DNA from: Bacteroidota bacterium
GTDB lineage: Bacteria > Bacteroidota > Ignavibacteria > Kryptoniales > JAKASW01
Reading direction: 5' to 3'
Length of the DNA stretch: 64,000 bases
NCBI GenBank assembly: GCA_021812985.1
Contig: JAKAMG010000017.1
Coordinates: forward strand, 1-64,000
Below, piece by piece: positions 27,077 through 42,002 of the stretch. The notes under the pieces are model-generated. The model saw only the letters and a program-made list of their open reading frames with translations, made no database searches and had not been told where the DNA came from. A program made the translations under genes and the position numbers. Within the stretch, counting starts at the first letter, position 1. Every line of letters starts with the position of its first letter.

Positions 27077-27859
27077 ATGAGGATTAAACCATTCTTTGTC
27101 GTATTTAGTTCGTTGATGATTGCCATGTTGATCGCATCCTGCACTTCGACGCAAGAGCTCATTGTGCAGGGAGCCGGGGAGACGTTTCATGACGGACTTG
27201 ATCTCCTGCAGAATAAAGATTATGACAGGGCCAGGCAGGAGTTCGATGTTGTCGTCAAGCAGTATCCGGCGAGCGCGTATGCGGACAGCGCTCAGTTTTA
27301 CCTGGCCCAGACGTATTATGACACAGAACAGTATCTGACGGCGGCATTCGAGTTCGGGAATGTCTACCGGAATTACCCCTCCTCTAAGCTCGCGCCCGAG
27401 GCGCGCTTCATGATCGCAAAATGTTACGCGGCGCAGTCACCCCGCGTTCAGCTTGACCAGGAGAATTCAAAGAAGGCAATTGAGTCGTTCCAGACATTTA
27501 TTGACTATTATCCCTCCAGTCCGCTTGTCCCGAAGGCGGAACAGGAGATAACGAATCTGCGGAACAAACTGGCCGATAAGAACCTCCAAATTGCGGAACT
27601 CTACAGCACGATGGGTTATTACAAGGCCGCGGTAGTCTACTATGACGTTATCCTGGACCAATACCACGACTCCAACGTCGCAGACAAGGCCGCCTTAGGC
27701 AAGGTGAAGGTCCTAATAAAGCGCCATAAAGATGGAGAGGCCAGGGACGCATTAACGAAATTCTATTCCACTTTTCCGAACTCAGGTCTGAAACCTGAAG
27801 CCGATAAGCTGGCCGAGTCCCTCAAACTGGATTCCGGCAAGGGTGGAGGGGGCAATTGA
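27077..27859 (+). CDS. bamD: Outer membrane assembly lipoprotein BamD
   Basis: 260 aa lipoprotein of the BAM complex that folds beta-barrel proteins into the outer membrane. Signal with lipobox LIASC (Cys22), then TPR-like repeats: DGLDLLQNKDYDRARQEFDV, SAYADSAQFYLAQTYYDTEQY, and SKLAPEARFMIAKCYAAQSP with DQENSKKAIESFQTFIDYYP. These match the YfiO/BamD pattern. It directly follows the unknown envelope gene and overlaps the start region of the thioesterase gene. Confidence 0.9.
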   Translation: MRIKPFFVVFSSLMIAMLIASCTSTQELIVQGAGETFHDGLDLLQNKDYDRARQEFDVVVKQYPASAYADSAQFYLAQTYYDTEQYLTAAFEFGNVYRNYPSSKLAPEARFMIAKCYAAQSPRVQLDQENSKKAIESFQTFIDYYPSSPLVPKAEQEITNLRNKLADKNLQIAELYSTMGYYKAAVVYYDVILDQYHDSNVADKAALGKVKVLIKRHKDGEARDALTKFYSTFPNSGLKPEADKLAESLKLDSGKGGGGN

Positions 27860-27902
27860 TCGCGTCATCACACATGTGGAAGCAGCGAAGGAGAGGAGCC
27901 GC

Positions 27903-28430
27903 TTGAAATCCGAAGAAGCTCTGGCGACGGGGAAGCCTGTAAGCGATTCTCAGGTGGAGATGGCCGAACTGGTACTGCCTAACGACACGAACCAGCTCGG
28001 GAACCTTCTTGGAGGGAGGCTGATGCACTGGATCGATATAGCGGCAGCCATGGCGGCTACCCGGCATTCCAACCATGTCTGCGTCACGGCCGCGGTGGAC
28101 GAGATCAGCTTTCTCCATCCCATAAGACTCGGCGAGCTTGTGATATTGAAGGCAAGCGTCAATCGCGTGTTCAACACCTCTATGGAAGTAGGGGTAAAGG
28201 TTTATTCCGAGAATGCTCTCTCAGGCGAGAGAAAACACTCCAACTCGGCGTTTCTGACGTTCGTGAGCATCGACGCTGGGCGAAATCCAATTAAATCCGT
28301 GCCGGTGATTCCAAAGCTGCCGGATGAAGTCAGAAGATATGAGCAGGCGCTTTTCAGACGTGAACAACGGCTAAAGCATAGGGAAGAAGCCAAAAGACTT
28401 TGGTCCGAGGGCACCGGCAAAGAGGGGTGA
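27903..28430 (+). CDS. Acyl-CoA thioesterase (hotdog fold)
   Basis: Cytosolic thioesterase of the YciA/BACH type that hydrolyses acyl-CoA. The hotdog signature VEMAELVLPNDTNQLGNLLGG and GRLMHWIDIAAAMAATRHS (two overlapping pieces) and VDEISFLHPIRLGELV are typical, with a basic helical tail. The TTG at 27903 follows GGAGAGGAG by 4 nt and gives 175 aa beginning a few residues before the domain. A GTG at 27843 is also in frame but overlaps bamD by 17 nt. Confidence 0.87.
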   Translation: MKSEEALATGKPVSDSQVEMAELVLPNDTNQLGNLLGGRLMHWIDIAAAMAATRHSNHVCVTAAVDEISFLHPIRLGELVILKASVNRVFNTSMEVGVKVYSENALSGERKHSNSAFLTFVSIDAGRNPIKSVPVIPKLPDEVRRYEQALFRREQRLKHREEAKRLWSEGTGKEG

Positions 28431-28440
28431 CCTTGTTGCG

Positions 28441-30582
28441 ATGAGAGATCACGAGGGTACCACACGCGCTCAGACGTTCACGCGACTGACAGTCGCAGCA
28501 ATAATATCGCTGTCCCTCTCCGGTTCAGCTAGCGCTCAAATTTATGACCCCGTCTTTAAGACCGTGGAGATGCAGGCGACCATCGCGCCGCTGGGTGAAA
28601 TGGTGAGGGGGGAGTTCTACGGCCGAACAAGACTGGCGGCAATCTCCAGGACTGAAAAAGCCATCTATATTTTTGAGTCTGACTCCCTCGAGAACCTCAT
28701 CCTGACAAACGTGGTCACGCTTCCCGATTCACCCGTCGCTATTTCAAAGGCGAAGGAGATAGTTATCAGCAACACCGGGCAGAAGGAACGGGATGATCAG
28801 CTTGTCGTGCTTATGAAGCCGCATACCGCCGCGCTCATAACATTTGGAGAGGACGGTCTTCCGGAAGTATCCTCGAAGGTCTCCGTCGATCAGTACGCGA
28901 GCGCAATTCGCGCGGCGGACCTCGAGACCACCGGTAAATTGGATATCGTGACGTACGGAAAGTTTTCGCTCGGGATTAAGATTGAGAAAAATCTGGGAAA
29001 CGGAAGATTCCGCGAGGCGCAATCTTCGCCAAGCCAGCTGGGTAATGTCCCCTTCAGCGATATCGCGTTCACCGATTTTAACGGAGACCTGGTTCCGGAT
29101 CTCGCTGCGCTTGATTGGGTGAACAGGAAGCTTTTGATATTTTACGGAAGAGGAGATGGAACGTTCGCTCAACCGGTGACCTTCCCGCTGAAGGCGGAAC
29201 CATCCACGCTTTCAGTAGCGGATCTGAACGGGAACGGGTATCCTGATATCGTGGTAGGCTACGCGCGCCTTCCCCAGATCGACATTTTCAGCGGCGACGG
29301 GTTTGGCAGATTTTTTCTTCGGCAAAGCATTAAGACTGATGCCCCGGTTTCGAAATTCGCGATCGCTGACTACACCGGCGACGGCACGATGGACATCGCC
29401 GCCCTTAGCAGGCCTTCGGACGAAATCATGCTCTTTGCGTTTGACCCGTTGTCGAAGAAGTTCCAGTATTCCGGTGTGATCGGAATCGGACGACAGTATG
29501 AGGACATAGTTCCGTTTAACTTCTCCAATCGGATACGTGCGGATCTTGTGGCTTCCAGCCCGTCGAGAAAATATCTGAAAATTTTCAAGAGCACGACAGT
29601 GTTTCCCCATCGGCCGGAGATGCAAATCCCGGTATGTCCCAATCCCGAGTTTGTCAGTGTTAGCGGAAATGATTCTTCAAGTTTCCTGGTCACGGGGAAT
29701 GGTACCGGACTGGTCAATCTCAGGTTCTCCAGAGGAATAATGCTTTCGCACTCGCGTTCCTCGGTAGATTGGCATTCGGAAGGGAGTCCGGAGGTAGTGA
29801 AGGTCCTTTCGGATATTCCACCTAAGCTTTTGATGTCCTACAATAACGCGGATATGATTAGCATGTACCAGATCGGAGCCGCGGGCGCCTCCGAATCAGC
29901 TGCGATGACCGCATTTCTTCCGTTTGCAGTTAGTGGCACGGTGACTGGCGATTCCGCGGCACTCGCAGCTGCTTACATGATACGCCCCGACAGTATGGTC
30001 GGTATTTCCTTCTTCACATCCGTAAAGGGAAAAAATGAGTTTCTCGAACATGACTTTTCTGTTTTAGATTCGCTAAAGTATTTAACCTCGCAGTTAGTCA
30101 TATCTCCCGTGTTAACCTTCCTGAGGGTTTGGAAACCGTCAAAAGACAGCATCGAGCTTGCATCGACATCTCTGTCTGCAAGCGGCTCATCCTACGTCCG
30201 TCTGCCTGGGAGCGACGCAAAGCTCTTTGATGTCGAGGGCGAGTCGATCCTAGCACTCATGGGAAAAGATACGCTGAATCTTTTCTCCGTCCAGCTCGGC
30301 GCGCTGAGCGGACTCTCCCTGGACTCTGTGTGCACAATGCCGCTTGACTCTGACTACTTCAGAAGCGTGAAGGTGGCTTCTCTCGATTCGACTTATTATC
30401 TCACCTATTTGAACCGGACGGACAGATCTGTTTTCCTTTACTCTGTCGATGATCAGCGGTTACGTTTTGTGAAAGCGTGGCGGGTGAATGACATCCCGAC
30501 GGACGTGAGTATATCACCTTTGATGCGCAAGGTTTATTTTCTTAATTCGGATGAAGCTTATGTGTCGATTCACTCATACTAG
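28441..30582 (+). CDS. Secreted FG-GAP/VCBS repeat protein
   Basis: 713 aa with a signal peptide (about residues 1-33, ending GSASAQ). FG-GAP-type calcium-binding loops are visible as DFNGDLVPDLAAL, DLNGNGYPDIVVG and DYTGDGTMDIAAL (about residues 212-320), predicting a beta-propeller. The C-terminal third looks like further propeller blades. There is no type IX sorting domain at its end (SIHSY), so its export route beyond the periplasm is unclear. Its 3' end overlaps the metalloprotease gene by 32 nt, so the two are co-expressed. Confidence 0.82.
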   Translation: MRDHEGTTRAQTFTRLTVAAIISLSLSGSASAQIYDPVFKTVEMQATIAPLGEMVRGEFYGRTRLAAISRTEKAIYIFESDSLENLILTNVVTLPDSPVAISKAKEIVISNTGQKERDDQLVVLMKPHTAALITFGEDGLPEVSSKVSVDQYASAIRAADLETTGKLDIVTYGKFSLGIKIEKNLGNGRFREAQSSPSQLGNVPFSDIAFTDFNGDLVPDLAALDWVNRKLLIFYGRGDGTFAQPVTFPLKAEPSTLSVADLNGNGYPDIVVGYARLPQIDIFSGDGFGRFFLRQSIKTDAPVSKFAIADYTGDGTMDIAALSRPSDEIMLFAFDPLSKKFQYSGVIGIGRQYEDIVPFNFSNRIRADLVASSPSRKYLKIFKSTTVFPHRPEMQIPVCPNPEFVSVSGNDSSSFLVTGNGTGLVNLRFSRGIMLSHSRSSVDWHSEGSPEVVKVLSDIPPKLLMSYNNADMISMYQIGAAGASESAAMTAFLPFAVSGTVTGDSAALAAAYMIRPDSMVGISFFTSVKGKNEFLEHDFSVLDSLKYLTSQLVISPVLTFLRVWKPSKDSIELASTSLSASGSSYVRLPGSDAKLFDVEGESILALMGKDTLNLFSVQLGALSGLSLDSVCTMPLDSDYFRSVKVASLDSTYYLTYLNRTDRSVFLYSVDDQRLRFVKAWRVNDIPTDVSISPLMRKVYFLNSDEAYVSIHSY

Positions 30583-32233
30583 ACTGACGTTTGCGCTGAT
30601 GTTGCTCGTCATGTGCGGGAGTGAGATGTTTGCGTCGAATCGGCGTGGTGACGTGAACCGAATGTTCGAATCATACAACGTCAGAGGGTACAATAGATGC
30701 GGTTTTCATATTGTGGCTCATTATTTTTCACTCCCCGGCGCTGATCCGGGGGTGAAGTCGGTGCTTCAGACCAGACCGGTAAATGACACAAGCATAGTAA
30801 GCTCTCTCGGACACTTCAGGATTCATTTTGACACGACCGGCTTCAACGCCCCTGTACTTTACAGCTCGACTGGTCAACCTGTTCCGAACAGCGCGTTTGC
30901 GTATGCGGATACTGTGGCAGGCATATGTGAGCATGTATATTATGTGGAGGTGGACTCGCTCGGTTTTCCGCCGCCCGCGTCAGACAGCGGAGCCGGGGGA
31001 GGGAACGAGTACGACATTTACATCCAGTCACTTCCGATCGGAGAATACGGTTACACGGATTGGGACCCTTCCCACCCGATAGTAAACAGGACAAACGCTA
31101 CATACGCTACCTGGACTGTAATTAGGAACGAGTTTGAGTCTGCCTACACTAGGGGGATACCTGCTATGGAGGTCACGCTCGCTCATGAATTTCATCACGG
31201 TATTCAGGTGGGTAACTACGGCCTTTGGGAGAACGACCTCTGGTTCTACGAGCTGACCTCCACGTGGATGGAGCAGGTCGTCTATCCCCAGGTTAAGGAT
31301 TATTACCAGTACTTACCGAGTTTTTTCCAGAACCTCTCTCAGCAACCCTTTGACGAGTATGAGCCGAACTCGTATGCCGGTTATGAGCGATGTGTCTTTG
31401 GAATATTCATTCAAAATGAATATGGGGCTTCATTGATGAAGTCAATATGGGAGGATATGTCTCGGGAAAGGGCCATCCCCGCCATAGAAGATGCCTTTAA
31501 GTCGAGGAATATATCTCCATCCGTGGCCTTCGAGCTATTTTCCCAATGGAATTATCTTACAGGATACAGGGCCGCGACCGCACCCGGGCTTGGGGTGACC
31601 ACATACCCGCTTGCTCCTGCTTATCCAGTTGCCGGGGTCGATGGAACGGGGATTCTGTCTTCAAGTGGAGTGAGCTTTTCAGGCAGAGCACCTCGTCTGA
31701 CGGAGCATTTTTTTCAGGTAGATAACGGAGGGGATACGGCGGCTATTCTCATTTCAAACAACAATTTCTCAGTTTTAGCGGCCCCGGATACCGCGACCTA
31801 TCCGTTCTCCGTCGGTATCTCTCCGGGGGCGTCCAATTGCATACGTGAATTAACGGGGGGGTACTGCCTTTTCTTCGATGTTCCCGATTTTCTAAACTGG
31901 TCGGTGTTTCCTCTTGTCGCCGGGTCATCGCTTGTTGCTCAAAGCAATGTTGTGTTTCCGCAGCCGTTCGACCCTGCAAACGAAACCGTAAAAATACCGT
32001 ATCCATATCAGCAAACTAACAGCGCAAGTCTTTCTATTTACGGGATTTCCGGAAATTTAGTTGATGAACTGTCGGGTGACGCGAATTTGTCGCATTTCCT
32101 GAGAGGTAGTTACTTCGTTTGGGATGGCCAGGATGCGGCGGGAAAAAAAGTGGCGAGCGGTGTTTATATTTATGTCGTGAGCGACGGTTCGAAAAGCTCC
32201 GTCGGAAAGATTGCTGTAGTGAGGAATAGATGA
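30551..32233 (+). CDS. Secreted metalloprotease (MXAN_6640-like) with type IX sorting domain
   Basis: 560 aa. Signal peptide to about residue 29. A zinc site HEFHH lies at 212-216, with a Glu of STWMEQ about 25 residues later as likely third ligand. The last 85 residues form a type A sorting domain: a PQPFDPAN start, SLSIYGISGNLVDEL, WDGQDAAGKKVASGVYIYVV and a final basic IAVVRNR. This marks it as type IX cargo. MXAN_6640 naming rests on my recall of the family. It overlaps the FG-GAP gene by 32 nt and the ABC ATPase by 4 nt. A second ATG at 30560 is possible. Confidence 0.82.
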   Translation: MKLMCRFTHTRLTFALMLLVMCGSEMFASNRRGDVNRMFESYNVRGYNRCGFHIVAHYFSLPGADPGVKSVLQTRPVNDTSIVSSLGHFRIHFDTTGFNAPVLYSSTGQPVPNSAFAYADTVAGICEHVYYVEVDSLGFPPPASDSGAGGGNEYDIYIQSLPIGEYGYTDWDPSHPIVNRTNATYATWTVIRNEFESAYTRGIPAMEVTLAHEFHHGIQVGNYGLWENDLWFYELTSTWMEQVVYPQVKDYYQYLPSFFQNLSQQPFDEYEPNSYAGYERCVFGIFIQNEYGASLMKSIWEDMSRERAIPAIEDAFKSRNISPSVAFELFSQWNYLTGYRAATAPGLGVTTYPLAPAYPVAGVDGTGILSSSGVSFSGRAPRLTEHFFQVDNGGDTAAILISNNNFSVLAAPDTATYPFSVGISPGASNCIRELTGGYCLFFDVPDFLNWSVFPLVAGSSLVAQSNVVFPQPFDPANETVKIPYPYQQTNSASLSIYGISGNLVDELSGDANLSHFLRGSYFVWDGQDAAGKKVASGVYIYVVSDGSKSSVGKIAVVRNR

Positions 32234-32871
32234 GATTAATTGCAAGAGACCTGAAAAAGGTTTTTAATAGACGCGTGGTATTCAGAGATCTCTCCTTCGA
32301 AGTGAAATCCGGGGAAGTATTGTCGATTACAGGCCCAAACGGAAGCGGAAAGTCAACCGCCTCAAAAATAATATGTGGAGTGCTCTCCCCAACGTCCGGC
32401 GAGATCGAGTTCTCTAATGGCGAAGAAAAGGTTGACAGGGAAGAAATCTACAAGCGTGTGGGTCTGGTTTCGCCGTACCTTGAATTGTACGGGGAATTTA
32501 CGGCACTTGAAAATTTGTTGATTGAATCGAAGGCCCGCAATCTGGCCAAGGAGGCCGAAGAAAGAGCAAATGAAGTCCTTGAGCTTGTGGGATTGTACGG
32601 GAGGCGAAACGATGAGCTCCGTGGATTTTCGTCCGGAATGAAACAGAGGTTGAAATATGCTGCGGCGCTCATACACGATCCCGACGTATTAGTACTTGAC
32701 GAACCTACTGCGAACCTCGACACTGCCGGAACTGATATGGTGTTTGCTGTCATTGAACGTTACAGGCGGGAGAAGATAGTTGTCCTTGCCACAAACGACT
32801 CGGATGAGGCCGCGTTAGGGGATGTTAAGGTGGTGCTTCAAAAGAGCTTAGGTAATAGTAATGGAAGGTGA
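32230..32871 (+). CDS. ABC transporter ATP-binding protein, possible CcmA
   Basis: 213 aa single nucleotide-binding domain. Walker A is GPNGSGKST (about 34-42), the signature is FSSGMKQRL (about 138), Walker B is VLVLDEPTANLD. No membrane subunit is encoded beside it. CcmB, a permease normally paired with the ATPase CcmA, lies 7 kb away on the opposite strand in a ccm cluster that lacks ccmA. This protein is the only candidate in the window. Coupling to the protease gene (4-nt overlap) and overlap with copA by 11 nt place it in the envelope/copper run. The CcmA role is inference. Confidence 0.8.
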   Translation: MRLIARDLKKVFNRRVVFRDLSFEVKSGEVLSITGPNGSGKSTASKIICGVLSPTSGEIEFSNGEEKVDREEIYKRVGLVSPYLELYGEFTALENLLIESKARNLAKEAEERANEVLELVGLYGRRNDELRGFSSGMKQRLKYAAALIHDPDVLVLDEPTANLDTAGTDMVFAVIERYRREKIVVLATNDSDEAALGDVKVVLQKSLGNSNGR

Positions 32872-35167
32872 TTCTCCTCGATTTGAAACCGAAAAATTGG
32901 GAAGGATAAAGCTTACTCTCCCGGTTCAGGGGATGACTTGCGCCAGCTGTGTCCTCCGAGTCGAAAAGGCTTTGAGCGGTGTAAAGGGGGTTGAGAAAGC
33001 TGTTGTCAATCTTGCCACAGAATCAGCGACAGTCGAGATAGTGCCGAATTTTGTCGATCTCAGCGTTCTGAAGAGCGCTGTTGAGGATGCAGGTTACAAG
33101 GTCATCGATACCGCAGACGAGGTCGAGGCGCTGAAGGCGGAATCGGAAGAGAGACTGCGCCATTACAGGAATCTGTGGAAAAAATTCGGGGTCGGAGCAG
33201 CGTTAGCTCTCCCTATCTTGACAGGGAGCATGCCGGAGCTCTTTCCGTTCGTCAAGCTGATTCCACGGCAATTGGTCGATGGCGTGATGATGTTGCTTAC
33301 GATCCCGATTCTGTTTTACGTCGGCGGTCAGTTCTTTAAGGGGTTCTGGGTGGCGCTCAAGCACAGAACTGCGGATATGAATACCCTGGTTGCGGTGGGC
33401 ACATCCTCGGCCTTTATCTACAGCAGTGTAGCGACTATCTGGCCAGAGCTTTTTGAATCGACCGGAAAGGCTGCGCAGGTTTATTTTGACACGAGCGCCG
33501 TCATAATAGTCCTGATCTTGCTCGGAAAGATTCTTGAGGCGAAGGCAAAATGGAAATCGTCTGAGGCGGTCAGGAAACTGTTGGCGCTTCAACCGTCGGC
33601 CGTTCACCTCATCCTGAACGGCGAAGAGACAGATGTTCCGCTTACTGCGGTCCAGGTCGGAAGTGTTTTGAGGGTGAAGCCCGGAGAAAGAATACCTGTA
33701 GACGCGACGGTGACTGACGGGTTCTCTACCGTGGATGAATCTGCTTTGACAGGGGAGAGCATTCCGGTTGAAAGAACTGTTGGGAGCTCAGTGCTTGGCG
33801 GTACCGTCTGCCTAGACGGAAGTCTTGTTCTGAGGGCGGAGAAAATAGGAAAGGAAAGCTTCATCAGCCGGATGGCGGCATTGGTTGAAGAGGCGCAGAC
33901 GACGAAACCTCCTGTGCAGAGGTTGGCGGACAAGATAGCTTCCATATTCGTGCCGGCAGTTATGGTCGCCGCGATCTTATCAGCGGCACTCTGGGCACTT
34001 CTTGGGCCTTCGCCCGTCCTCGTCCATTCACTGATGGCATTTGTAGCCGTTTTGATCATCGCGTGCCCCTGTGCTCTGGGTCTCGCAACACCTACCGCGA
34101 TCATGGTAGGGACCGGGCGTGGCGCGGAAATGGGTATACTCGTCAGGGGGAGCGACGCGCTTGAGCAGGCAGGAAAGATCACATCTGTGGTTTTCGATAA
34201 AACCGGGACTCTTACGGTAGGCGAGATGCGCGTAGCCGAGATTATGGTTCGGGATGGCATTACTGATAATGAGCTACTCGGATTGGCAGTCCTGGCTGAG
34301 GTTAATTCCGATCACCCCATCGCAAAGGCGGTCGTCGAGGAGGCGAAGCGGCGTGCCCTAGTGGCGGGAGCCGTTGTCAGTTCCGGCTTCAGGAATTACT
34401 CCGGAAAAGGTGTGGAGGTAAATGTACGAGACACGAAGGAGTCTTCCATCCTCAGAGTCGGGAGGCTTGAATTCGTAACCGAGCAGACCGGTGAAGATGA
34501 GGTTAAATTGTTCGCGGAACAAGTCTTCGCACAGGCTGAAGAACTTGCGGCGACGGTACTCTTCGTTTCGCGTGGCTCCGCGCTTCTGGGGGCAATCCTG
34601 GTAAGCGACTACATAAGGGAAGGGGCGGTGGAAACTGTCAGGAGTATGAAGAAACTTGATCTGAAGGTAAGCCTTTTGACCGGAGACGGCGAGGCTGCGG
34701 CCAAAAGGGTCGCATCACTGCTTGGCGTCGACAATTTTTTTGCGAATGTCGCCCCCGACGGCAAATTCAAATCGGTAAGGCAACTTCAGGACTCAGGGGA
34801 GATTGTGGCATTTGTCGGAGACGGCGTGAACGACGCGCCGGCGCTTGCGCAGGCCGATCTCGGTATCGCCATGGCCTCGGGGACAGACATAGCCATCGAA
34901 GCTTCTGATATAACTCTCGTCAGAAATGACCTGAACTTGGTGCCGTTGTCGGTAGGTTTGTCCAGGCGTACGTTGAGGGTGATAAAACAAAATTTGTTTT
35001 GGGCGTTTTTCTACAATGTTATCCTGATTCCTCTCGCGGCCGGGGCGCTCTATCCTGTGACGGGGTGGCAGCTTAATCCAATGATTGCCTCGGTCGCGAT
35101 GGCGCTGAGTTCGGTAAGCGTTGTGAGTAACTCGCTCCGGCTCAAAAAATTATCGGCTCGACCATAG
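32861..35167 (+). CDS. copA: Copper-translocating P1B-type ATPase
   Basis: 768 aa copper exporter of the inner membrane. An N-terminal HMA domain has GMTCASC (Cys27, Cys30). The actuator has TGES (297-300), the transport helix has CPC (402-404), and the phosphorylation motif DKTGT is at 446-450, followed by DHPIAKAVV and the GDGVNDAPAL hinge. About eight membrane segments fit the family. One HMA domain, normal length. It is followed by a separate copper chaperone gene. Copper export beside cytochrome maturation fits a respiring organism. Confidence 0.94.
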   Translation: MEGDSPRFETEKLGRIKLTLPVQGMTCASCVLRVEKALSGVKGVEKAVVNLATESATVEIVPNFVDLSVLKSAVEDAGYKVIDTADEVEALKAESEERLRHYRNLWKKFGVGAALALPILTGSMPELFPFVKLIPRQLVDGVMMLLTIPILFYVGGQFFKGFWVALKHRTADMNTLVAVGTSSAFIYSSVATIWPELFESTGKAAQVYFDTSAVIIVLILLGKILEAKAKWKSSEAVRKLLALQPSAVHLILNGEETDVPLTAVQVGSVLRVKPGERIPVDATVTDGFSTVDESALTGESIPVERTVGSSVLGGTVCLDGSLVLRAEKIGKESFISRMAALVEEAQTTKPPVQRLADKIASIFVPAVMVAAILSAALWALLGPSPVLVHSLMAFVAVLIIACPCALGLATPTAIMVGTGRGAEMGILVRGSDALEQAGKITSVVFDKTGTLTVGEMRVAEIMVRDGITDNELLGLAVLAEVNSDHPIAKAVVEEAKRRALVAGAVVSSGFRNYSGKGVEVNVRDTKESSILRVGRLEFVTEQTGEDEVKLFAEQVFAQAEELAATVLFVSRGSALLGAILVSDYIREGAVETVRSMKKLDLKVSLLTGDGEAAAKRVASLLGVDNFFANVAPDGKFKSVRQLQDSGEIVAFVGDGVNDAPALAQADLGIAMASGTDIAIEASDITLVRNDLNLVPLSVGLSRRTLRVIKQNLFWAFFYNVILIPLAAGALYPVTGWQLNPMIASVAMALSSVSVVSNSLRLKKLSARP

Positions 35168-35199
35168 AATATCGTCACAAAGATACCTGGGAGGTTCAC

Positions 35200-35421
35200 T
35201 TGTTTGGAATTGGATCTAAGAAGAAGTTGCTGAATGTCGAAGGCATGACCTGCCACCATTGCGAGATGACTGTTGAGAAAGCGTTGATGGAAATTGAGGG
35301 CGTGAAGATCGCAAAGGCTGATCACGCCAACAAGAGTGTCGAGGTGCAGTACAAGAGCGAACTCGATATGAAGAAGGTAAAAGAGCAGATAGAGAAGGCG
35401 GGATATAAGCTCGTCGCATAG
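35200..35421 (+). CDS. copZ: CopZ-like heavy-metal chaperone
   Basis: 73 aa HMA-domain protein with GMTCHHC (Cys18, Cys21), the MxCxxC metal-binding loop, followed by the expected beta-alpha-beta pattern. Likely delivers Cu(I) to the ATPase encoded 32 nt upstream. The start is TTG, supported by GGGAGG 5 nt upstream. A bidirectional terminator lies just beyond. Confidence 0.9.
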   Translation: MFGIGSKKKLLNVEGMTCHHCEMTVEKALMEIEGVKIAKADHANKSVEVQYKSELDMKKVKEQIEKAGYKLVA

Positions 35422-35504: not shown

Positions 35505-37880
35505 CTAAGCGGGTTCTTTCAGGAGCTCCTCCCGTCTGCGTCTCCAGGTCACAATGAATCCGATGACCATTATGATGACACCGCTCCAGACCAGGTTGAT
35601 AAAGGGTTTTATCGTTGCCTCTATCACCAGCACCTGCTTGCTGCTTTGCGGTTGCTGCTGAGCTTCCTTGAAAAGGGCGAAGTCAGGCGAATTGCTGTTC
35701 GGCATATACGCCAGGTCAATGGATGCCTGTTTTGTCTGATTGTCAACGTGAACATCCGTAACTGTAAATTCGTCGCCTGATTTGGTGGCTACGGTATGCA
35801 GCTCAGATGCGCTGGAAGGGATGATCTTATTAGTGGGAAGTATTTTCTCAACTTTACCGTCTGCGGTTTGCAGCTTCACTATGGAGCCGAGCGAGAAGGG
35901 CTTTCCATCTATCATCGCCTGCCGCTCGTTCTCAGGAACCTGAAAGCCTTCGAAGGTGAGCGTGTATTTCCCGATCGTTACGGGTTGGTTCAACGTCAAG
36001 GGGATGGACATACCATATTGCGAGGTCTCTATACCGGTGCTCTGTTGCTCCAGTGATTGCGGGGATAGATAGAGGTCGCGAGTGAGCATGTTGCTTGCGA
36101 TGAAGGCGAGGAGTCTGGGGTGCGTGAACGCGTCGTAATTGACGAGGCTGAATATGTAGGGGTGACGCATGATCGCGCCGTCGTTATACGAGCTGGCATA
36201 CATGACAAGGGGCGCGTTGAATGAGCTAGTGCCACTCTGGACGGTCACGTTATATGCGGTCTTCTCATTGTCCACCTGCGTGGGGCCAGTGTAGGTTAGC
36301 TCATATCCGAACGCCTTAGCAGGCTGATTTTCCGGAAGCGTGAGTGTAACATGCTTGTCGTACCTTGAAGAGGCAATTATCCCGACAAAAAGTATAGCGA
36401 CGCCGATGTGTGAAAGGGAAGCGCCAAGGAATTTCGGGTTTCCCTTCGCAATCTTGTATGCTATCTCGAGATTCACGAAGAACGCAAAAGAGCTGGCGAT
36501 GAAGAAGAGTATCATCCCTATGTCGTGCATTCCGGCAAATATCACTATTGCCGTCACAATCGTCGAAGCAACGAACGGGAGTTGGATAGTCCTGAGGAGG
36601 GTCTGGGAATTTGATCTTTTCCACCAGAAGAGCTGACCCAAACCGATCATCGCGGCCATGAAGATTGCGAGGGGAAGATTTGTCTTTAGATAGTAACTCG
36701 TGTCTATCGCGCTCGGCTTGCCTTTGATGAGGTTCGTGATTAGAGGTGCGCTCGTGCCGATGAGCGTAAAACCTGCGATCACCACAAGAGCAGACGCGCC
36801 GAGGAAAAGCGCGAACTCGCGGGAAGTCAGCGTGTAATTGATTCTCTCCTTTGGTATGTTCCTGACCCGGAGAAGATACAGACCGAATCCGAGAATGGAA
36901 AAGAAGGCAATAAAGACAACGAGGAGTACATACACCCACATACCCGGTTTGACGAAACTGTGGACTGAAGTGTCGCCGAGCACGCCGCTTCGAGTGAGGA
37001 AAGTGCTGTAGAGGACGAGAAGAAATGGCATCATTCCCATGATGAAGTTTGCGCGCTTGAAACCACCCGTGCGTCGTTGAACCAGGAGCGTGTGAATGGA
37101 AGCAACGGCGAAAAGCCAGGGGATGAAGGATGAGTTCTCAACAGGATCCCATCCCCAGAAGCCGCCCCAGCCTAACGTTTCGTAGGCCCAGAAGCCGCCG
37201 AGGGTGATCCCGAATCCCAGCACTGCCGAGGAGAAGAGCGTCCAGGGGAGCGCAACTTTTGTCCATCGGTCGTGATCTTTCCGGAGGAGGCCGGAAAATG
37301 CGTGAGCGAACGGGACGGCGGTAGAAGCGAACCCAAGAAACAGTATGGGGGGATGTATCACGATCCAAAGATTCTCGAGGAGCGGATTGAGTCCCCGGCC
37401 GTCCGTTGGCATGAACCCCTTTTGCACTGATTGAGGCCATGTCTGCCAGACATGCTCGAATGGGTTCTTTGCCATTGTCATGAGGACAAGGAAGGCGGCA
37501 ATGGATGAAAAAATCCCCATGACAGAGGACTCGTAATGGTGTTTCCGCGAATATACCATCAGTATCAGTCCAATGATGGACGTGTACATCGTCCAGAGCA
37601 TGAAGCTCCCTTCCTGTCCGACGTAGAATGCAGAGATCAGCAGGGGAGGGTGAAGCTCATAAGAGCTGTAGCTCCAAACGTAGGTGTACTGGAACTGATG
37701 GGTGAGAATCATGTTCATGAAGTAGCCGGCCGTGATTATGACGGCTACTGACCCGACGTGGAAACCGCTTCTGGCGACCTTAAGGTACTTGTCCTCGCCG
37801 CTGAAGAAGCTGTATGTATATGCAAAAGTGGCAGTCAGCATTCCGCCGAATGCCACGTACAACAGGGCTTGGCCTAGCAT
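35505..37880 (-). CDS. ccmF: Cytochrome c maturation haem lyase CcmF
   Basis: 791 aa integral membrane protein that joins haem to apocytochrome c. The tryptophan-rich haem-handling signature WGGFWGWDPVENSSFIPWL is intact, with NPLLENLWIVIHPPILFLG and TFLTRSGVLGDTSVHSF nearby. About 14 membrane helices and a large periplasmic region (about residues 500-750) precede the final helix. It is the last gene of ccmB-C-D-E-F; the gap to ccmE is 12 nt. No ccmG or ccmH gene follows. Confidence 0.94.
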   Translation of the reverse strand: MLGQALLYVAFGGMLTATFAYTYSFFSGEDKYLKVARSGFHVGSVAVIITAGYFMNMILTHQFQYTYVWSYSSYELHPPLLISAFYVGQEGSFMLWTMYTSIIGLILMVYSRKHHYESSVMGIFSSIAAFLVLMTMAKNPFEHVWQTWPQSVQKGFMPTDGRGLNPLLENLWIVIHPPILFLGFASTAVPFAHAFSGLLRKDHDRWTKVALPWTLFSSAVLGFGITLGGFWAYETLGWGGFWGWDPVENSSFIPWLFAVASIHTLLVQRRTGGFKRANFIMGMMPFLLVLYSTFLTRSGVLGDTSVHSFVKPGMWVYVLLVVFIAFFSILGFGLYLLRVRNIPKERINYTLTSREFALFLGASALVVIAGFTLIGTSAPLITNLIKGKPSAIDTSYYLKTNLPLAIFMAAMIGLGQLFWWKRSNSQTLLRTIQLPFVASTIVTAIVIFAGMHDIGMILFFIASSFAFFVNLEIAYKIAKGNPKFLGASLSHIGVAILFVGIIASSRYDKHVTLTLPENQPAKAFGYELTYTGPTQVDNEKTAYNVTVQSGTSSFNAPLVMYASSYNDGAIMRHPYIFSLVNYDAFTHPRLLAFIASNMLTRDLYLSPQSLEQQSTGIETSQYGMSIPLTLNQPVTIGKYTLTFEGFQVPENERQAMIDGKPFSLGSIVKLQTADGKVEKILPTNKIIPSSASELHTVATKSGDEFTVTDVHVDNQTKQASIDLAYMPNSNSPDFALFKEAQQQPQSSKQVLVIEATIKPFINLVWSGVIIMVIGFIVTWRRRREELLKEPA

Positions 37881-37892
37881 TGTAGTCCTATG

Positions 37893-38303
37893 TTAGTTGT
37901 AGCTGGTCGATCCGTTTTGGGCGGATGCCTGAGGTCCCGTTTTGGATTGGTATTTGGAGGGACATTTGGTCAGAACTTCGCTGGCCTTGAAGACTCCGTC
38001 TTCGAAGCGCCCTTTAGCGACAACGTCGTTGGCGATTTCGAAGTTATTGGGCTTCGCGCCGGCGAGAACGACCGGGATAACCGTCTTCTGGTCATCCATC
38101 ATGTAGAAGTGAAATGTGTTGGTCTGGGGATCGTAAAAAGTCTTCATGTCTTTGACCCAGGATCCCTTCACCTGGACGGTCCGGTTGGTTTGTTCAGCGA
38201 CCTTCGCAGAGACATATGCAATGTTGTTTTGCATAAAGGAGATTGCCCCGAAAACTATAAAGGCAACTATTACCACACCGGCTACAATATATTTGGCTTT
38301 CAT
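37893..38303 (-). CDS. ccmE: Haem chaperone CcmE, Cys-type variant
   Basis: 136 aa periplasmic haem chaperone with one N-terminal membrane anchor (about 5-24) and an OB-fold domain. In most CcmE proteins haem is bound covalently by the His of an HxxxY motif. Here the place is taken by Cys114 in LTKCPSKYQ (CxxxY, Tyr118). This substitution defines the variant system I* known from some archaea and sulphate reducers. Start ATG overlaps the ccmD stop (ATGA). Confidence 0.88.
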   Translation of the reverse strand: MKAKYIVAGVVIVAFIVFGAISFMQNNIAYVSAKVAEQTNRTVQVKGSWVKDMKTFYDPQTNTFHFYMMDDQKTVIPVVLAGAKPNNFEIANDVVAKGRFEDGVFKASEVLTKCPSKYQSKTGPQASAQNGSTSYN

Positions 38304-38461
38304 CTCTTGTCTTCCTTTTCATTTGCAGTCTGCTCGTAGAGCTTTCCAACTCTCTTATCTAAACGATATAAATAGATAAAAATTCCCAGCCATATTACCA
38401 GGACAATCGTCAGGACGATGTAAAGTGTGTTGGTGTTCAGAAAATCGTAAAGGGAGCCCAT
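38300..38461 (-). CDS. ccmD: CcmD-like small membrane protein
   Basis: A 53-aa protein too short for usual gene calls. It reads MGSLYDFLNTNTLYIV, then a single membrane helix (about residues 13-32), then a basic Arg/Lys-rich tail ending KEDKR. This is the CcmD pattern, and its position between ccmC and ccmE is exactly that of ccmD. ATG 38459-38461 immediately follows the ccmC stop, and the TGA overlaps the ccmE start. CcmD helps release haem-loaded CcmE from CcmABC. Confidence 0.85.
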   Translation of the reverse strand: MGSLYDFLNTNTLYIVLTIVLVIWLGIFIYLYRLDKRVGKLYEQTANEKEDKR

Positions 38462-39139
38462 TTATTCTATCTCCGTGTGGTTTTGGTATGTCAGAATGCC
38501 GATCTTCGATCGAAGCTGGAAAAGCCAGACGTAAAGGAGGCTGAAGCCTACAAGAGACGCGTAGAAAACATATCTCATATTCGCGTCCATGTACATTTTC
38601 CCGTTCGCGTTAACTATGGGAGCTGGTGATCCTTCGCCGGGGTGAAGGCCGGTCATCATTCTCGGCATGATGAACACAAAGAAGGGAACCGTAATAAAGG
38701 CGACGATGGAATAGACCGCGGACAATGTCGCTCGTCTCTCCTCGACCTCCAGCGCGCTGCGTAGGGAAAAATAGGCGCCGTAAATAAGAAGAAGGACGAA
38801 AATCGATGTTTCCCTCGGATCCCAATTCCAGAAGCTTCCCCAATTGAACTTTGCCCATATCGAGCCCGTAACGGTCGCGAGTATACTGAAAATAAAGCCC
38901 AGTTCAGCCGCTGCGGCCGATTTGATGTCCAGCTTCATATCCTTTTTTCGGAGGTATGCTATGCCATACCACATCGACATGAAAAATGCCAGCACAGCGA
39001 GCCATGACATCGGCACATGGAAGAATATTATGCGCGCCTTTGCGCCTAGACCGGGGATGTATCCAATGGGCATCGCGATACCGACAGCGACCACAACGGC
39101 TATCCAGATGCCAATACCTATCTTCATCCAGTTTTTCAT
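38462..39139 (-). CDS. ccmC: Haem exporter protein CcmC
   Basis: 225 aa membrane protein with six helices. The tryptophan-rich motif WGSFWNWDPRETS (about 101-113) binds haem, with conserved His residues in IIFFHVPMSWL and GLHPGEGSP flanking it. It attaches haem to CcmE together with CcmD. Its ATG directly follows the ccmB TGA. Confidence 0.93.
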   Translation of the reverse strand: MKNWMKIGIGIWIAVVVAVGIAMPIGYIPGLGAKARIIFFHVPMSWLAVLAFFMSMWYGIAYLRKKDMKLDIKSAAAAELGFIFSILATVTGSIWAKFNWGSFWNWDPRETSIFVLLLIYGAYFSLRSALEVEERRATLSAVYSIVAFITVPFFVFIMPRMMTGLHPGEGSPAPIVNANGKMYMDANMRYVFYASLVGFSLLYVWLFQLRSKIGILTYQNHTEIE

Positions 39140-39802
39140 TCAATCTCTCCAGACAAAATCAAACAAAACGATGGCGGCAGTCGTGACGACTACCGCGTAA
39201 GAGAACATTATCTTGAAGTCGCCCAGCGCCTCGCTCAAGGCCGCTCCATCCACAGAAAGTCTCGTCGCGTCAATGACGCTCATTAGGAGAGGGAGGAGGA
39301 TCGGAAACGAAAGGACAGGGTAGAGCGTCCCTTTGGAGTTAGCCTTTGAGATTATCGCGGCTATGAAAGTCGACGCCGCTGACAGCCCAAAACTTCCCAC
39401 GACTATGGTCAGAAAAAATATAAGGGGCGATTTTACGATGAACGAAGGCATAGTGAGCATGTAGGCGATCACTATGAGGGCGTTGAGCACGTAGATCAGT
39501 AGTGAGTTGAAAAGGAGCTTCCCAAGAAGGACAGAGGAGGGGGCGACCCAAAGCTGGAGCGTCATAGACGTTCCGCGTTCTTCTTCGCTGACAAAACACC
39601 TGGATAGTCCGCTCATGGCGGCGAAGAAGATTATGACCCACAGGATGCCAGCTGAGAGACTTGGCGAGACTGTCTCACCGGCCGTTGAGAAAAGTATAAT
39701 TGAAAGGGTCACGACGACGAACATTACAAGCGAGTTCAGAGCATAACGAGTGCGCAGTTCGCTGTAAAGGTCCTTGCTGAATATTGCTGCTGCTCCTCTC
39801 AT
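39140..39802 (-). CDS. ccmB: Haem exporter membrane subunit CcmB
   Basis: About 220 aa, six membrane helices. The N-terminal FSKDLYSELRTRYALNS segment and FVSEEERGTSMTLQLW are typical of CcmB, the permease of the CcmAB transporter that releases holo-CcmE. I take ATG 39802; a TTG at 39838 would add 12 residues that do not fit the family. First gene of the ccm unit. The ATPase CcmA is not in the cluster; a candidate lies at 32.2 kb. Confidence 0.9.
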   Translation of the reverse strand: MRGAAAIFSKDLYSELRTRYALNSLVMFVVVTLSIILFSTAGETVSPSLSAGILWVIIFFAAMSGLSRCFVSEEERGTSMTLQLWVAPSSVLLGKLLFNSLLIYVLNALIVIAYMLTMPSFIVKSPLIFFLTIVVGSFGLSAASTFIAAIISKANSKGTLYPVLSFPILLPLLMSVIDATRLSVDGAALSEALGDFKIMFSYAVVVTTAAIVLFDFVWRD

Positions 39803-39957
39803 TGCCGATAAGATAGCCCCGGATGTGTTTATCTTCAAGGAACGTAAGGAGTAGAAGGTGACTTCGCTGCTAATTCCTCTTGGAGACCTCCGCTTGAAGT
39901 GTTAAATTTACACACTTGCGCGAGACAGGGGGTACTCCCGACGCGCAAAAACGCTTC

Positions 39958-40045
39958 GGAGAGGTGCGAGAGTGGCTGAATCGGCTCGCCTGGAGAGCGA
40001 GTTACCGCCAAAAGCGGTACGAGGGTTCGAATCCCTCCCTCTCCG
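39958..40045 (+). tRNA. tRNA-Ser (GGA)
   Basis: 88-nt class II tRNA with acceptor stem GGAGAGG / CCTCTCC, a long variable arm (ACCGCC/GCGGT) and T-loop GTTCGAA. Anticodon GGA lies in the loop CTGGAGA and reads UCC/UCU. Discriminator is G; CCA is not encoded. Confidence 0.96.
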
Positions 40046-40069
40046 CAGGTTCTTTTGAGATTTTTATAT

Positions 40070-40156
40070 GGAGAGGTGCGAGAGTGGTTGAATCGGCCGG
40101 TCTCGAAAACCGGAATACCCTCCGGGGTATCGAGGGTTCGAATCCCTCCCTCTCCG
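40070..40156 (+). tRNA. tRNA-Ser (CGA)
   Basis: 87-nt tRNA-Ser, 24 nt after the first. Acceptor and T arm are identical to the first copy. Anticodon CGA in the loop CTCGAAA reads UCG. The long variable arm differs (TACCC/GGGTA). CCA is not encoded. Confidence 0.96.
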
Positions 40157-40165
40157 CTCACCTGC

Positions 40166-40288: not shown

Positions 40289-40538
40289 TAACACCCCCAT
40301 CGAACCGCCTATCCTATCACGTTTGGCCGGTCTAAACCCGCTCGGTTTCTACTTTTCCATTCATCCTGGGACATCTGGGCCATTTTACTGACTGAATGAG
40401 CCGCACAGAAGGAATGGGGATTTTTTTTCCGAAACGATCACGATATGCTATGAAGTAAAGGGAAACAATCATGGCGAAACCGGATTCTTGATTTTTACTA
40501 TTGGCAGGAATATCTTGAAAACGTGTTTAGAGGCTCTC

Positions 40539-42002
40539 ATGAGTAATGACGATTTTGATTTCTCGTTCGAAGACGACGAATACGACGAGTTTGAGAAGCG
40601 CAACATAAACGAGGAAATAAAGCGACTTCGGAGGGAAGAGCCTACCTTCTCGAGCATTGCGGCGCTCGAGGAAATCATCGATTATTTCATGAGTCAGGAC
40701 AAGTACGAAGATGCTCTCTTCTTCGCAAACAAGCTTATTTCGGTGATGCCTGCCAGCGCCGAAAACTGGTTCAGGCGCGGTGAGATAAACGAGGCGCTTG
40801 GAAAATTCGAAGATTCCCTTGATGACTATTCAAAAGCGCTGGAATACAACCCCATTGAAATCGACGCTCTCATAGGGCGCGCAAGCTGTCTGCAGATGCT
40901 GGACAGGCACGAGGAAGCGCTTGAAAGCATAGAACGCGCTCTCGATGTGGACCCCGGAAGTTACGAGGCCCTCATGAACCAGGGGGTGATACTGGAAAAG
41001 CTGGCCAGGTACGAGGAGGCCTCCAAGGTCTTCAAGTATCTGACTGACCTAGACTCGTCAGACAAGGACGCCTGGTTCGAGCTGGCCTACTGCTACGATT
41101 ACCTCGACCAGCCTGAGAAATCGCTCAAGTGCTATGACAAGGTCATTGAGTACGACCCCTACAACTACAGGGCATGGTACAACAGGGGAATAGCGCTGAA
41201 CGCACTTGGCAAGTATCAGACGGCCGTCGAGAGCTATGAAATGGCCATAGCCATAGACGAAAAATTCGGTGCTGCCTGGTACAACAGGAGTAATGCACTT
41301 CTGAGTATGGGGAAGCTTCGCGAGGCCATCGAAAGCTACAAGACCACGCTGAAGTACGAACCGAAGGATGTCGCTTCATGGCACAACATGGCGACAGCAT
41401 ATGAAGAATTGGGGGAGTACCGAGACGCGGTCAGATGCTACACCGAGGCTTTGAAGTGTGACCCAGACCATGTCGAGTCTCTCTTCGGACGGGCTGTCTG
41501 CTACGATGCGATGAGCATGTATAGGAAGGCGCTCGTAGACTTCACGAAGGCGGCGGAATTGAATCCGGCGGATGCTGACATTTGGCACGCGCGCGGCGAC
41601 GTCGAGTTCACTTTGGAGATGTACGAAGACTCGATTGTAAGTTACCGAAAGGTGGTCGAGCTGCAGCCGGACAACGTCGACGGCTGGCTGGACCTGGGTG
41701 ACGCGTTGAGCGAATGCGATTCAAACGATAAAGCCCTTGAGGCATATGACAGGGTGATCAGCATTTCGCCTGACTGGAGCGAGGCATACTATCAGAAGTG
41801 CAAGTGCTGTCTCGCACTGGGCTGGTTCGATGAGGCGATACAGACCGCCAAGAAGGCCCTTGAGCTAGAGCCGCATAAGATCAACACATTCTTCCAGGAT
41901 TTCGGACAGATACAACATTCCAATCCGGAGATCCTGATAAAATTTGTCTTTCCTGTTTACGAATGGTTGGTAAATGAAAAGAAATACCGAGACCCACGCT
42001 AA
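40539..42002 (+). CDS. Cytosolic tetratricopeptide-repeat protein
   Basis: 487 aa made almost wholly of TPR repeats after an acidic N terminus (FSFEDDEYDEFE). At least eleven 34-residue units run from about residue 60, such as AENWFRRGEINEALGKFEDS and KDAWFELAYCYDYLDQPEKS. No signal peptide. ATG 40539 has AGAGG 5 nt upstream; a TTG at 40488 is in frame but less likely. Its last 29 nt overlap the aroE start, so the genes are coupled. A protein-protein scaffold; partner unknown. Confidence 0.85.
   Translation: MSNDDFDFSFEDDEYDEFEKRNINEEIKRLRREEPTFSSIAALEEIIDYFMSQDKYEDALFFANKLISVMPASAENWFRRGEINEALGKFEDSLDDYSKALEYNPIEIDALIGRASCLQMLDRHEEALESIERALDVDPGSYEALMNQGVILEKLARYEEASKVFKYLTDLDSSDKDAWFELAYCYDYLDQPEKSLKCYDKVIEYDPYNYRAWYNRGIALNALGKYQTAVESYEMAIAIDEKFGAAWYNRSNALLSMGKLREAIESYKTTLKYEPKDVASWHNMATAYEELGEYRDAVRCYTEALKCDPDHVESLFGRAVCYDAMSMYRKALVDFTKAAELNPADADIWHARGDVEFTLEMYEDSIVSYRKVVELQPDNVDGWLDLGDALSECDSNDKALEAYDRVISISPDWSEAYYQKCKCCLALGWFDEAIQTAKKALELEPHKINTFFQDFGQIQHSNPEILIKFVFPVYEWLVNEKKYRDPR

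Follow-up and report, generated by a model that had tools for sequence, protein, structure and literature searches.

The cytochrome c maturation (ccm) locus described here, from a member of the Bacteroidota, belongs to System I*, an already known variant that is widespread in this phylum. We are highly confident that it is a System I* machine in which CcmA, CcmB, CcmC, and CcmD load the haem chaperone CcmE, and CcmF ligates the haem without CcmH. The window (the whole 64,000-nucleotide stretch of DNA that was analysed) encodes a CcmE with a CXXXY motif as well as CcmA, CcmB, CcmC, and CcmF, and the genome that it comes from has neither a His-type CcmE nor a CcmH. The preliminary description of this DNA had proposed the name System I*. 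The CPSKY motif, the single CcmE, and the lack of CcmH and of any CcmG above the cut-off all support that name.

CcmE has a cysteine in place of the haem-binding histidine

The ccmE gene (37893-38303, minus strand) encodes a Cys-type (CXXXY) haem chaperone of 136 amino acids, and it matches the CcmE family of Pfam (PF03100) with 63.9 bits (E = 1.9e-17). The protein begins with a transmembrane helix (residues 3-26), which is followed by a beta-barrel domain. The conserved domain closes with the CPSKY motif (37950-37964, minus strand; ...VLTKCPSKYQ...), which runs from Cys114 (codon TGT, 37962-37964) to Tyr118 (codon at 37950-37952).

If the window's CcmE is aligned to that of E. coli K-12 (NC_000913.3), Cys114 falls exactly on the haem-binding His130 and Tyr118 falls on Tyr134. 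Together with the Pfam match, this confirms that the protein is a CcmE with cysteine instead of the haem-binding histidine, as first described. The preliminary description had also suggested aligning it with the Cys-type and His-type families. By profile comparison, the closest solved chain is 2kct, which is the Cys-type CcmE of D. vulgaris (PMC3884852). An AF2 model (mean pLDDT of 81) has a membrane helix, beta strands across residues 43-113, and a flexible C-terminal tail; Cys114 lies immediately past the last strand and ahead of the tail. We predict that Cys114 replaces His130 of E. coli as the residue that attaches haem.

The ccm genes are split around copA

The genes ccmB, ccmC, ccmD, ccmE, and ccmF are contiguous on the minus strand. 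ccmB (39140-39838; PF03379, 57.9 bits, and synteny) encodes the membrane subunit of an ABC transporter and is listed with a TTG start. ccmC (38462-39139; PF01578, 94 bits; TIGR01191; aligned to E. coli CcmC) encodes a haem-handling WWD protein; ccmD (38300-38461; PF20077, 26.5 bits; TIGR04391) encodes a 53-amino-acid member of the CcmD_alt family; and ccmF (35505-37880; PF01578 and PF16327) encodes a cytochrome c synthase of 791 amino acids. These matches bear out the earlier report of a ccmBCDEF set with no ccmG or ccmH beside it.

A search of the genome for ccmA had been proposed as a check. The gene had been missed, and it lies in the same window: it encodes an ABC ATPase of 213 amino acids (32230-32871, plus strand). 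TIGR01189 alone did not pick it out, as there are 35 matching ABC ATPases and the window's gene ranks third, with a score (108.6 bits) below the cut-off. Synteny decided. In sister families (L047, L050, L055, L058, L059, L063, L067, and many named Ignavibacteria and Bacteroidetes loci), genes for a thioesterase, an FG-GAP protein, a metalloprotease, and an ABC ATPase precede ccmB, ccmC, ccmD, ccmE, and ccmF, in that order. The four genes upstream of ccmB recur in the window on the plus strand (27843-32871), so we identify the ATPase as ccmA. The metalloprotease in this run (30551-32233, plus strand; a putative secreted protein of the MXAN_6640 type; NF045524 and synteny) is a conserved neighbour upstream of ccmA. 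It marks the ancestral operon and is not a Ccm component.

ccmA and ccmF are separated by a copA-type P-ATPase and an HMA-domain copper chaperone (32861-35421, plus strand; domain matches and synteny). The same split is found in L105-L107, which are the closest relatives of the window, so ccmA was parted from ccmBCDEF within the genus by a rearrangement around copA. In several relatives (L111, L126, L136, L139, and L176), copA follows ccmF on the opposite strand. The recurrence of copper genes near ccmF hints at a lasting copper/cytochrome neighbourhood. In one congener (L046; G260:C30:220000-239900), ccmF is missing after ccmE, and two CcmF genes are found on other contigs of that genome. Divergent from ccmB and upstream of it in the window are two tandem tRNA-Ser genes (anticodons gga and cga; 39958-40157, plus strand).

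The genome has no CcmH match and no CcmG above the cut-off

The source genome was assembled as a draft of 64 contigs (3.5 Mb, 98.95% completeness), so a missed gene is conceivable, but the pattern across the phylum (see below) argues against this. A search of the genome with PF03100 found a single CcmE and no second or His-type CcmE. No protein in the genome matched the Pfam family for CcmH, while four control genomes did give matches. The genome also lacks matches to a profile of the CcmH-like domains of Bacteroidota, a profile that has no external control. All of the DsbE/CcmG-type matches in the genome were below the cut-off. So the combination that defines classical System I, a His-type CcmE with CcmG and CcmH, which had been named as the finding that would speak against the variant, was not found in this genome. 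The TPR protein at 40488-42002 was considered as a candidate for CcmI; it matches 34 TPR-type families, and PF23914 scores well below the general TPR models, so there is no ground for that name.

Potential partners and substrates are encoded elsewhere. TlpA-type thioredoxins are found on contigs C42 and C47, and CcdA/DsbD-type membrane proteins are found on contigs C47 and C56. A CcdA-type protein and the TlpA-type thioredoxins are likely to be the thiol-reducing partners. The codon pattern for CXXCH (TGYN6TGYCAY) occurs at 378 sites in the genome, versus 132 sites for the reversed control, and the sites form dense runs on contigs C2 and C11, like those of multihaem cytochromes.

Cys-type CcmE is the rule in Bacteroidota

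We found CcmE in 264 of 393 genomes from the phylum (as defined by GTDB), and we inspected the protein from 92 of these: the 30 best-scoring loci (including the window's), 40 chosen for spread across families (eight of these genomes were already in the best-scoring set), and 30 that were weak or divergent. The cysteine is present in all 92, within CPSKY in every case except for one CPSRY. The weak or divergent group is important because it was chosen irrespective of the residue. We did not count another 80 named ccm loci as evidence about the residue because the search pattern itself required CPSKY. The named relatives of the locus are nearly all MAGs of Bacteroidetes, Ignavibacteria, Kapaibacteria, or Chlorobiota. 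Judging from these sequences, a Cys-type, CcmH-less System I is the rule in the phylum, and the cysteine form is universal among the sampled carriers of CcmE, so it is no oddity here.

None of the phylum's ccm loci whose neighbourhoods we inspected has a CcmH. In the phylum as a whole, 13 of the 393 genomes have weak matches to CcmH (PF03918), with six of them over the cut-off. We inspected the sequences from six of these genomes and the neighbourhoods from four. Each of the six proteins is a membrane protein that contains a CcmH-like cysteine-rich domain or a pair of them, and the four neighbourhoods are metal-efflux islands instead of ccm loci, so we set these matches aside. The genes in some members of the class (L101:9508-10314, L102:7844-8695, L103:9399-10220, and L104:13366-13815) encode zinc-ribbon or membrane-anchored proteins with one or two such domains (CGCGSC...YGG), and they lie in heavy-metal RND efflux islands, where a CcmH-like domain would not usually be expected.

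Two families have a tandem second CcmE-like gene after the Cys-type ccmE (L057:9415-9840 and L066:9432-9812). These second copies lack the cysteine and indeed the whole CPSKY motif. Also, a record titled Bradyrhizobiaceae bacterium (L175) has a Bacteroidota-type ccm locus and is probably a mislabelled or mis-binned MAG.

Alternative explanations

There is essentially no chance that CcmE is really of the ordinary His type and that the cysteine arose from a sequencing error, a possibility that had been raised, or from misassembly: two congeners of the source organism share the cysteine, as does every member of the phylum that we inspected (92 of 92). Another idea is that the ccm genes are a non-essential remnant and that System II (ResB/CcsA) makes the cytochromes. 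The genome does encode a CcsA/HemX-like membrane protein of 277 amino acids on contig C39 (L096:9045-9875, minus strand). However, its gene is directly upstream of hemA, hemC, hemD, and hemE, a run of hem genes that is the usual context of HemX, and no ResB-like protein is among the genes listed around it. Furthermore, all of the ccm genes are intact, the ligands of CcmF are conserved, and CcmF is kept in 108 of 109 genomes of the class. We consider a remnant of this kind to be very improbable.

Comparison to known systems

Allen et al. 2006 were the first to note the cysteine in CcmE, and System I* was reviewed in 2011 (PMC3601427). In that review, most of the bacterial genomes (25 of 36) already had CPSKY. 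It also listed Chloroflexi and Firmicutes with the cysteine form, so the preliminary description, which had this form established for a few archaea and deltaproteobacteria, drew its range too narrowly, as its universality in the sampled Bacteroidota also shows. Similarly, the proposed link to the loss of CcmH holds in this genome but does not define the variant: about a third of the bacteria with the cysteine form still have CcmH (PMC3601427), as do Metabacillus and Cytobacillus. We did not find any literature that states how Cys-type CcmE is distributed in Bacteroidota, although our coverage was incomplete and this does not prove that there is none.

System I* from Desulfovibrio (Allen et al. 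2006; Goddard et al. 2010, both via PMC3601427) shares the CXXXY CcmE, the presence of CcmD, and an operon without adjacent CcmG or CcmH. It is from another phylum, however, and ccmA is separated from ccmBCDEF in the window's genus. The window's CcmF also has a large insertion relative to the four CcmFs that we aligned from outside the phylum (see below). The streamlined Ccm of the archaeon Methanosarcina acetivorans (PMC9084895) shares the Cys-type CcmE and the lack of CcmH and CcmI, but its CcmF is in two pieces and it has no CcmD, whereas the window has CcmD and a CcmF that is a single protein. A plasmid operon from Metabacillus/Cytobacillus has a CPSKY CcmE, CcmF, and CcmABC. It also includes a TlpA gene and a gene annotated as CcmH, and its CcmF (660 amino acids) lacks the insertion. 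Classical System I from E. coli (NC_000913.3) has CcmA through CcmF with the same CcmF ligands, but its CcmE has His130, its operon includes CcmG and CcmH, and its CcmF is shorter.

Our results extend System I* from the groups in the reviews (archaea, deltaproteobacteria, Chloroflexi, and Firmicutes) to Bacteroidota, where it seems to be universal among carriers of CcmE. The system also offers a natural test of haem attachment without CcmH: the source genome encodes multihaem cytochromes but has no CcmH, and CcmF has a conserved extra domain across the phylum.

Proposed pathway

We propose that CcmAB, with CcmC and CcmD, would bring haem to CcmE in the periplasm. There, Cys114 is predicted to hold a vinyl group of the haem as a thioether, with Tyr118 as the probable axial ligand. 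Holo-CcmE would hand the haem to the WWD/P-His site of CcmF, which would then ligate it to the CXXCH of the apocytochrome without CcmH. The thiols of the apocytochrome would presumably be held reduced by the CcdA-type protein and the TlpA-type thioredoxins.

The covalent attachment and transfer of haem are proposed by analogy with experiments in Desulfovibrio and Methanosarcina. The Desulfovibrio ccm operon functions in E. coli without CcmG or CcmH, and its Cys-type CcmE binds haem covalently (PMC3601427). In M. acetivorans, Cys120 of CcmE is required for haem attachment (PMC9084895). On the other hand, the CcmE of D. vulgaris was reported to bind haem non-covalently via its cysteine (PMC3884852), so it is uncertain that the bond is covalent in the window's CcmE. 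We did not find any biochemical studies of Ccm from this phylum in the literature.

CcmF has a large insertion

The less expected feature of this system, and one that deserves the attention of specialists, is an insertion in CcmF. The WWD motif and the ligand histidines (H176, H263, H307, and H491) are kept in at least 97% of 87 homologues, and the protein matches CcmF from Thermus (6zmq, E = 2.1e-53). But it has 791 residues, versus 647 in E. coli, and the surplus is mainly one insertion within the periplasmic beta domain, at residues ~603-757 (35610-36074, minus strand; from alignments and AF2). An insertion of ~120-135 amino acids is present in every CcmF that we aligned from the phylum. 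From the conserved D-x-Y to the C-terminal membrane helix, there are 156 residues in the window's CcmF and ~118-157 in 87 CcmFs from the phylum (one has 258; the median is 142 and the minimum is 118), as compared to 22-24 in CcmF from E. coli, Metabacillus, Deinococcus, and Iamia.

The inserted region is predicted to be beta structure (pLDDT of 91 for the AF2 model of the domain). Weak similarity to ResB is seen in 17 of 50 members (best E = 3.2e-5). Foldseek found no match to the domain with E < 0.001: most of the matches were to beta barrels at low probability, the only match of high probability (0.96) was CcmF 6zmq, and the top 50 did not include a structure of CcsBA. A beta-stranded cap above the active site has been described for both CcmF and CcsB (PMC10663686).

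Metabacillus, which has a short CcmF, combines Cys-type CcmE with an annotated CcmH, so the insertion could plausibly take on some of the substrate handling of CcmH. A stronger reading is that the inserted domain took over this role from CcmH and that these bacteria have a distinct subtype of System I*. All 87 of the aligned CcmFs from the phylum are long in this segment, unlike those of the four outsiders; the ccm loci of the phylum lack CcmH; Metabacillus has the CcmH gene and lacks the insertion; and there is a weak resemblance to ResB, a subunit of System II that has no need of CcmH. However, one phylum may represent one evolutionary event, so the co-occurrence of the insertion with the absence of CcmH is weak evidence. 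The short CcmFs of Iamia and Deinococcus adjoin TlpA genes, and their surroundings contain no annotated CcmH; the Foldseek results lend no help. Also, the window's CcmF has no cysteine anywhere, so the insertion cannot supply the thiol chemistry of CcmH. Overall, we view a distinct subtype as possible but unlikely. Still more tentatively, the enlarged, two-part, and distantly ResB-like beta domain of CcmF from Bacteroidota might present the apocytochrome to the haem, which would make it a single-protein synthase that is independent of CcmH. If so, this synthase would be an intermediate between Systems I and II.

The source genome also contains a second full-length CcmF paralogue, alone on contig C29 (L095:7598-10030, minus strand) and away from the other ccm genes. 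At least two matches to CcmF occur in each of the 11 genomes that we examined from the genus, and the lone paralogue might be a specialised synthase.
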